Source: a virus | DNA length: 32,012 bases | Direction: 5' to 3' (one strand) | Virus record (IMG/VR): IMGVR_UViG_3300025000_000306 | Span: 1-32,012 of that record | Program-made: the position numbers and the translations under genes | Notes under the pieces: model-generated | The model's database searches: none | What the model saw: the letters and a program-made list of their open reading frames with translations, nothing else | Told to the model about the DNA's origin: nothing | Shown: positions 29,997-30,405 of the stretch, one piece after another | How positions within the stretch are numbered: the stretch's first letter is position 1 | Layout: the number at the start of each line of letters is the position of its first letter

Positions 29997-30044
29997 ATGA
30001 AAACCTCCTGAATATTAATCCATCCTCATATCTGCCCACATTCA

Positions 30045-30399
30045 CCCCGGTATTACACTCCGGCTCCCCGCATCCATGGTGCGGATCAACGCTATTACTG
30101 GTTACCCTGGTCCATACACGCCCGGCTAAAAAATTTGCCTGGCTCGGATGGCATCTTACTAAATAAACTCATGTATTCAGTTGTCAATGGCACAAGCGAG
30201 GGTGCCTGCAAGATCCGATGTTTTGATATGCTTTATTTCCCAAACTTCTCAACATTTCTGTCAATTATGTTTGCCGGGTGCCGCTTCCGCGTGAGCACCT
30301 ATTTTGGGATGAAGCAGATTCTCGTTTACTAGAGAACGCATGTTTTGACTAGATTGAATCACGCTGCCGTGATATATTGTTGATGTTTGATATCACCAC
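30045..30399 (-). ncRNA. Structured early leader RNA, unrecognised class
   Basis: These 355 bases lie between the early promoter and the first early gene, carry no credible gene and are visibly richer in G and C than their surroundings. On the minus strand they form successive helices: ATCACG/CGTGAT with loop GCAG (30358-30373); GTTCTC/GAGAAT (30318-30337); GGTGC/GCACC enclosing CGC-GGAA-GCG, a GNRA tetraloop (30277-30299). A three-way junction is closed by TCGGAT/ATCCGA (30213-30218 with 30144-30149), with arms GGCAC/GTGCC (30189-30206) and ACTGAATA/TATTTAGT (30158-30181). UCCGCA/UGCGGG follows (30067-30085). Three of these helices need G-U pairs that exist only on the minus strand, which sets the RNA orientation. 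Confidence 0.65.
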
Positions 30400-30405
30400 A
30401 TATAT

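Follow-up and report, generated by a model that had tools for sequence, protein, structure and literature searches.

The stretch 30004..30399, read on the minus strand, belongs to a clostridial Mu-like prophage related to phage Mushu. It forms the untranslated leader of that prophage's lytic early operon, and it plausibly works like an rrn-type (Nus-factor) antitermination leader, a reading that we hold with middling confidence. It had been offered earlier as one option among several, on the strength of six helices, a three-way junction and strand-specific G-U pairs; none of these bears it out, and what argues for it instead is a boxA-like site, the enrichment of such sites in the early leaders of related phages, and one covarying hairpin. 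Comparison with those relatives further indicates that the leader is a real, fast-evolving RNA and that phages of this group have a leader RNA in common.

Results

Gene context and extent of the leader

The window, by which we mean the whole 32-kb virus record analysed here (32,012 nt), has a Mu-like gene order on its minus strand (Table 1). A MuA-type DDE transposase, a MuB-type ATPase, Gam and GemA are present in a single early operon, which lies behind a divergent repressor, and the Pfam matches behind the assignment are Mu-transpos_C, DDE_2, AAA_22, Phage_Mu_Gam, GemA and HTH_3. Among named phages, Faecalibacterium phage Mushu comes closest (MuA 38%). The leader begins at an inferred transcription start about 7 nt past the -10 box of an early promoter that had been called perfect and that does match the consensus at every position, and about 50 relatives have a promoter in the homologous place. 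It ends at the Shine-Dalgarno sequence CAGGAGG (30010-30004), ahead of the ATG of the first early gene. The LPD24-domain protein encoded there has a sole match in the phage collection, Bacillus phage P59 (Herelleviridae), and no homologue among the 391 genomes searched; protein searches that started from the MuA and LPD24 proteins of the window retrieved no close relatives. Two exact copies of the direct repeat TACGGTAATCAAACTT (30455-30440 and 30426-30411, minus strand) overlap the early promoter and are likely operators of the divergent repressor. A third, degenerate copy lies at about 30489-30474 (minus), the repeats surrounding the early -35 box.

Table 1. Features of the early region of the window
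Feature	Position	Strand	Basis
Divergent cI-like repressor, 267 aa	30504-31307	plus	HTH_3
Early promoter TTGACA-17-TATAAT	30434-30406	minus	12/12 consensus match
Untranslated early leader, about 395 nt	30004..30399	minus	sequence; homologous to L036 leader
16-bp imperfect palindrome, then ATATATCAC	30397-30369 (palindrome 30397-30382)	minus	nearly all of 52 leaders
Hairpin TTCTC/GAGAA, lineage-specific	30319..30336	minus	sequence only
Possible outer helix CCCAAA/TTTGGG	30239..30308	minus	sequence only
Hairpin b, GGUGC...GCACC, stem 30299-30277	30303-30272	minus	covariation; covariance model
CGGAT...ATCCG domain (proposed three-way junction)	30217-30145	minus	sequence
Hairpin GGCAC-CCUCGCUU-GUGCC	30206-30189	minus	sequence; shuffle test z = -1.0
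boxA-like site TGCCATTGACAACTGAATA	30192-30174	minus	2 edits from clostridial rRNA boxA
Hairpin CCGCA/TGCGG	30084-30068	minus	sequence
GAGCCG(N7)ATACCG	30066-30048	minus	also in L036; short match, suggestive only
First early gene, LPD24-domain protein, 97 aa	29996-29703	minus	Pfam PF18839, E = 6e-10
Ner-like HTH	29576-29355	minus	Pfam and PHROG matches
ORF of early operon, between Ner-like HTH and MuA	29342-28986	minus	
MuA transposase	28819-26738	minus	Pfam and PHROG matches
MuB-like ATPase	26718-25759	minus	Pfam and PHROG matches

Composition, coding potential and fold

Two claims of the earlier note hold here: the region is richer in G+C than its surroundings, at 30045-30330 (0.479 versus 0.388 elsewhere; 99.4th percentile), and it contains no credible gene. 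A Pfam search of the leader frame pieces tried gave no matches, and the longest stop-free run, 106 codons antisense to the leader (about 30009-30332, plus strand; p = 0.045 against shuffles), has no early start codon and no homologue found by tblastn. No Rfam covariance model reached its gathering score anywhere in the window, the single match of a permissive search was a meaningless chance one outside the leader, and a search for tRNA and tmRNA found none. The leader is therefore unrecognised, as it had been called, so far as Rfam goes, but its boxA part is similar to a known signal. GAGCCG..AATACC, which we took to resemble the 16S 530 loop, was judged a coincidence. Rfam matches do occur in relatives, away from the early leader: a pemK RNA (L014 1650-1729) and a molybdenum-cofactor riboswitch (L024 3702-3824).

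The minimum free energy of 30004-30404 is -110.3, versus -105.7 +/- 6.0 for shuffles (z = -0.78; equalled by 20 of 100), so that the proposed six-helix fold as a whole is no better than shuffled sequence. The opposite strand gives z = -0.35. Scanned in 100-nt windows, either strand goes down to about -2 to -3, the transcribed one only to about -2; the argument from G-U pairs is weak, both strands folding about equally well relative to shuffles. Single hairpins proposed on first reading do occur (30206-30189, 30084-30068 and 30299-30277), and the last is GGTGC..GCACC with an inner GGAA loop. The proposed three-way junction does not go beyond shuffles, and its CGGAT...ATCCG domain is missing from the sister phage L036, with no relative of it detected. 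The candidate CCCAAA/TTTGGG helix would enclose hairpin b and a small AACAT/ATGTT hairpin (30271-30251). With an ordinary fold and no Rfam or protein family match, the structural argument alone is insufficient.

A boxA-like site in the leader

Prompted by the leaders of relatives, a search was made with a boxA consensus drawn solely from clostridial 16S-23S spacers and not fitted to the window, about TG[CT][AT]C[ACT]TTGAAAACTG[AC]A[TC]A, of which GCACATTGAAAACTGAATAG and GTACCTTGAAAACTGAATA are examples. Spacers were fetched directly because searches of clostridial genomes for exact-consensus boxA turned up copies away from recognisable rRNA ends. Seven near-identical GCTCTTTGAAAACTGAACATCAAGTAC... 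copies so placed, in genome G102 (L143, L147-L152), probably belong to a mobile element that is repeated in this genome and has a boxA-like leader. The leader site UGCCAUUGACAACUGAAUA at 30192-30174 stands 2 edits over 20 nt from the consensus (one substitution, one deletion), approximating an exact boxA. Within two edits, both strands of the window hold exactly one site, the one on the transcribed strand in the leader, and the next best matches in the window are four edits away. Among 53 phages, nine boxA sites fall in 26.5 kb of leaders (500 nt each) versus three in the remaining 1325 kb, an enrichment of about 150-fold that is descriptive, the related phages not being independent. Dinucleotide shuffling of the window leader produced a boxA-like site once in 20000.

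Sites of the form [CT]TCTTTGAAAA[CT]TGAA lie in or soon after the leaders of L016 (twice), L047, L052 and L041. The boxA site is located after the Ner gene in L052 and L053, the long leader of L041 carries AGTTCTTTGAAAATTGAATAG, the L036 version, GAACCTTGGCAATTAAATA, is poor, and the majority of relatives' leaders lack boxA. The early leader of L016, about 500 nt (575-1060), contains boxA twice; the roughly 360 nt between the copies are rich in G+C and in purines, appear to be untranslated and have no match in phage or plasmid collections. In the window, the GGCAC/GUGCC hairpin directly precedes and overlaps the boxA-like site, and four of the site's bases, among its first, could pair in that stem. 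As a stable boxB upstream of boxA this hairpin was not supported by the shuffle test (z = -1.0); the segments upstream of other sites gave z = -1.8 to +0.8.

A covarying hairpin shared with related leaders

About 100 related loci were obtained through MuA alignments. Some 50 records yielded an early promoter, and the final set comprises 53 leaders, that of the window among them. DNA homologues of the whole leader were absent from phages, plasmids, 20 related records and 121 related loci. The sister phage L036 (repressor 43% identical, MuA 42%) was recognised only through its start-site motif and alignment. Its leader is shorter, 276 nt, and aligns with that of the window (z = 3.3; none of 300 shuffles as good), with shared blocks at AACAATAT..CACG.CAG, hairpin b, GGCAA..ATA.TGACAG..ATG..GGAAATAA and GAGCCG..ATACCG; the window leader contains additional sequence, of which the 30217-30145 domain is a part. 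In L125 the leader measures about 390 nt and has GAACCTTGAAAAGTAAATATTGTGACA, resembling GAACCTTGGCAATTAAATATAGTGACA of L036. L041, whose MuA is the most similar among the relatives and whose repressor is 32% identical, also has a long leader, which was not accepted as a full homologue, its alignment not being significant (z = 0.66). A MAFFT alignment of three long leaders was misplaced and was excluded from the counts.

Of the checks proposed earlier, the comparison of related leaders gave one hairpin with compensatory changes, hairpin b, and the Rfam search gave no match. In relatives it runs roughly GUGC-UCCYRYCUAANUG-GCAC (L005, L008, L014, L019, L023, L044, L036 and, weakly, L006), and its stem exchanges are U-A/C-G, G-C/A-U and A-U/U-A/C-G. 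Across seven relatives, three of the five pairs change on both sides with 100% of cells paired, and there are nine two-sided changes versus 3.6 in shuffles (none of 500 as good), counts that are not independent events, some phages sharing ancestry. Sliding the partner strand abolishes the signal. A nine-sequence version of the test included the window; a covariance model built without it places its best match on either strand of the window at 30303-30272 (E = 0.029). Hairpin b sits about 100-135 nt after the transcription start. By this comparison, the window leader belongs to a family of clostridial Mu-like phage leaders, defined here by hairpin b.

At the start site, nearly all relatives share a 16-bp imperfect palindrome, a spacer and CATANCACA or a like sequence, a layout conserved across very divergent Mu-like clostridial phages; the window version is GGTGATATCAAACATC..ATATCAC. 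The outer positions of the palindrome served to locate the element in leaders. Because its length is constant and it tolerates non-pairing A-C, A-G and T-T oppositions, it is probably a DNA operator, possibly one bound by the Ner-like protein, and an RNA stem is not our main reading of it.

Discussion

What might explain about 400 untranslated bases ahead of a long early operon? It is in such a position that protection of the elongating polymerase would help, which is why we read the leader as an antitermination leader. NusB-S10 binds boxA RNA and, acting together with NusA and NusG, lets the polymerase withstand Rho over long untranslated RNAs, as known for rRNA, lambda early operons and CRISPR arrays; boxA upstream of long untranslated RNAs, namely rRNA and CRISPR arrays, is reported to raise processivity (PMC12691694, PMC7862264), and boxA also acts in some 5' UTRs (PMC5725501). 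For the window we infer the following course, including any role of hairpin b. The leader would be transcribed from the repressor-controlled early promoter; as the leader emerges from RNA polymerase, host NusB-S10 would load on its boxA, joined by NusA and NusG; the polymerase would become resistant to Rho and weak terminators; and the long untranslated leader and the operon behind it (Ner, MuA, MuB, Gam, GemA and others) would be transcribed. Several observations speak against this reading: the window's boxA is imperfect and its first bases may pair, L036 has a poor version and most relatives' leaders none, no boxB is established beside the site, and neither the leader nor the first early genes have a conspicuous intrinsic terminator on the transcribed strand. 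More tentatively, and with less conviction, clostridial transposable phages may have evolved leaders that mimic rRNA antitermination, using host Nus factors, with conserved hairpins of their own replacing an N protein, and so have made their early operon resistant to termination.

The most serious alternative, unlikely in our estimate, is a fast-evolving leader with no role in elongation, whose hairpins would serve to stabilise the 5' end of the mRNA or to adjust how the first gene is translated, and whose likeness to boxA would be chance or a relic. An overall fold no better than shuffles, leader sequence that is mostly without homologue, and the many relatives with boxA-less leaders of about 80-170 nt would all suit such a leader; the covariation of hairpin b would not, nor would a boxA-like site that is unique in the window, about 150-fold enriched in leaders and matched in one of 20000 shuffles.

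Less probable again is a leader RNA that acts through hairpin b and the adjoining helices, bound by an RNA-binding protein of phage or host or working directly on the polymerase in the manner of put, with boxA secondary. Such an RNA would likewise serve regulation or antitermination, but its type would be an undescribed one. The stem covaries and the loop letters UC...CUAA..G are conserved in relatives, six of which have the hairpin in boxA-less leaders (L005, L008, L014, L019, L023 and L044). The window's own loop, however, is partly divergent and has lost part of this conserved sequence, and only eight or nine phages carry the hairpin.

We consider it very unlikely that the region acts as DNA (an operator, enhancer or transposition site), the palindrome and repeats being repressor or Ner sites and the rest spacer. 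The start-site element, with its constant length and tolerated mismatches, fits this, but it spans only about 30 of 395 bases, hairpin b has true two-sided changes with a conserved loop, and it is the transcribed strand that carries the boxA sites. That the region is what remains of a protein gene, or a fragment captured from the host, as the deviating G+C content and the 106-codon antisense frame might suggest, is scarcely credible, given the lack of family or tblastn support, the homologous leader in L036, and that no similarity of the whole window leader to rRNA spacers was reported.

Openly searchable papers say little about processive antitermination in Gram-positive phages, and a boxA early leader would suggest that non-lambdoid phages make direct use of the machinery of rRNA antitermination and apparently need no N protein for it. 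The 19-nt site and the covarying hairpin are concrete objects for a test, and the clostridial boxA consensus from rRNA spacers can be used to look for similar leaders in other mobile elements.

Among known systems, phage Mu has the same gene order, repressor, early promoter, Ner, MuA and MuB, but was described earlier as having no early leader of such length; many clostridial relatives of the window phage have leaders under 170 nt. The early leader of phage HK022 likewise contains structured RNA, put, for which an action on elongation has been proposed, but put consists of two short hairpins and is Nus-independent, and the likeness is one of description only. In the LoaP systems of Bacillus, too, a leader RNA goes with processive antitermination of long operons in a Gram-positive organism. 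LoaP, a protein of the NusG type, antagonises NusA (PMC12691694); the set of phage proteins examined gave no LoaP-like gene, and LoaP does not use boxA as its signal. The lambda nut/N system shares with the window a boxA in the transcript of a phage early operon and a hairpin nearby. In lambda nut the order is boxA, then boxB, whereas in the window the hairpin adjoining boxA precedes it, and the candidate boxB was not supported. No N-like protein is annotated among the early proteins scanned (Pfam/PHROG), a scan that was not a systematic search for N. As neither a boxB nor an N is established, we class the leader neither with the lambda nut sites nor with an Rfam family, since none of the families matches. 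Nus-dependent non-lambdoid coliphages still rely on an N-like protein and nut sites (PMC11893012). The rrn-type boxA leaders, a class that also covers CRISPR-array leaders and the suhB 5' UTR, differ from the window in that its operon is a protein-coding phage operon, its boxA is two edits off and it has extra hairpins of its own. The resemblance in the sequence feature is approximate, and we liken the leader to this class rather than count it a proven member: the site resembles the clostridial rRNA spacer boxA, and it stands in an untranslated leader soon after the strong promoter of a long transcription unit.
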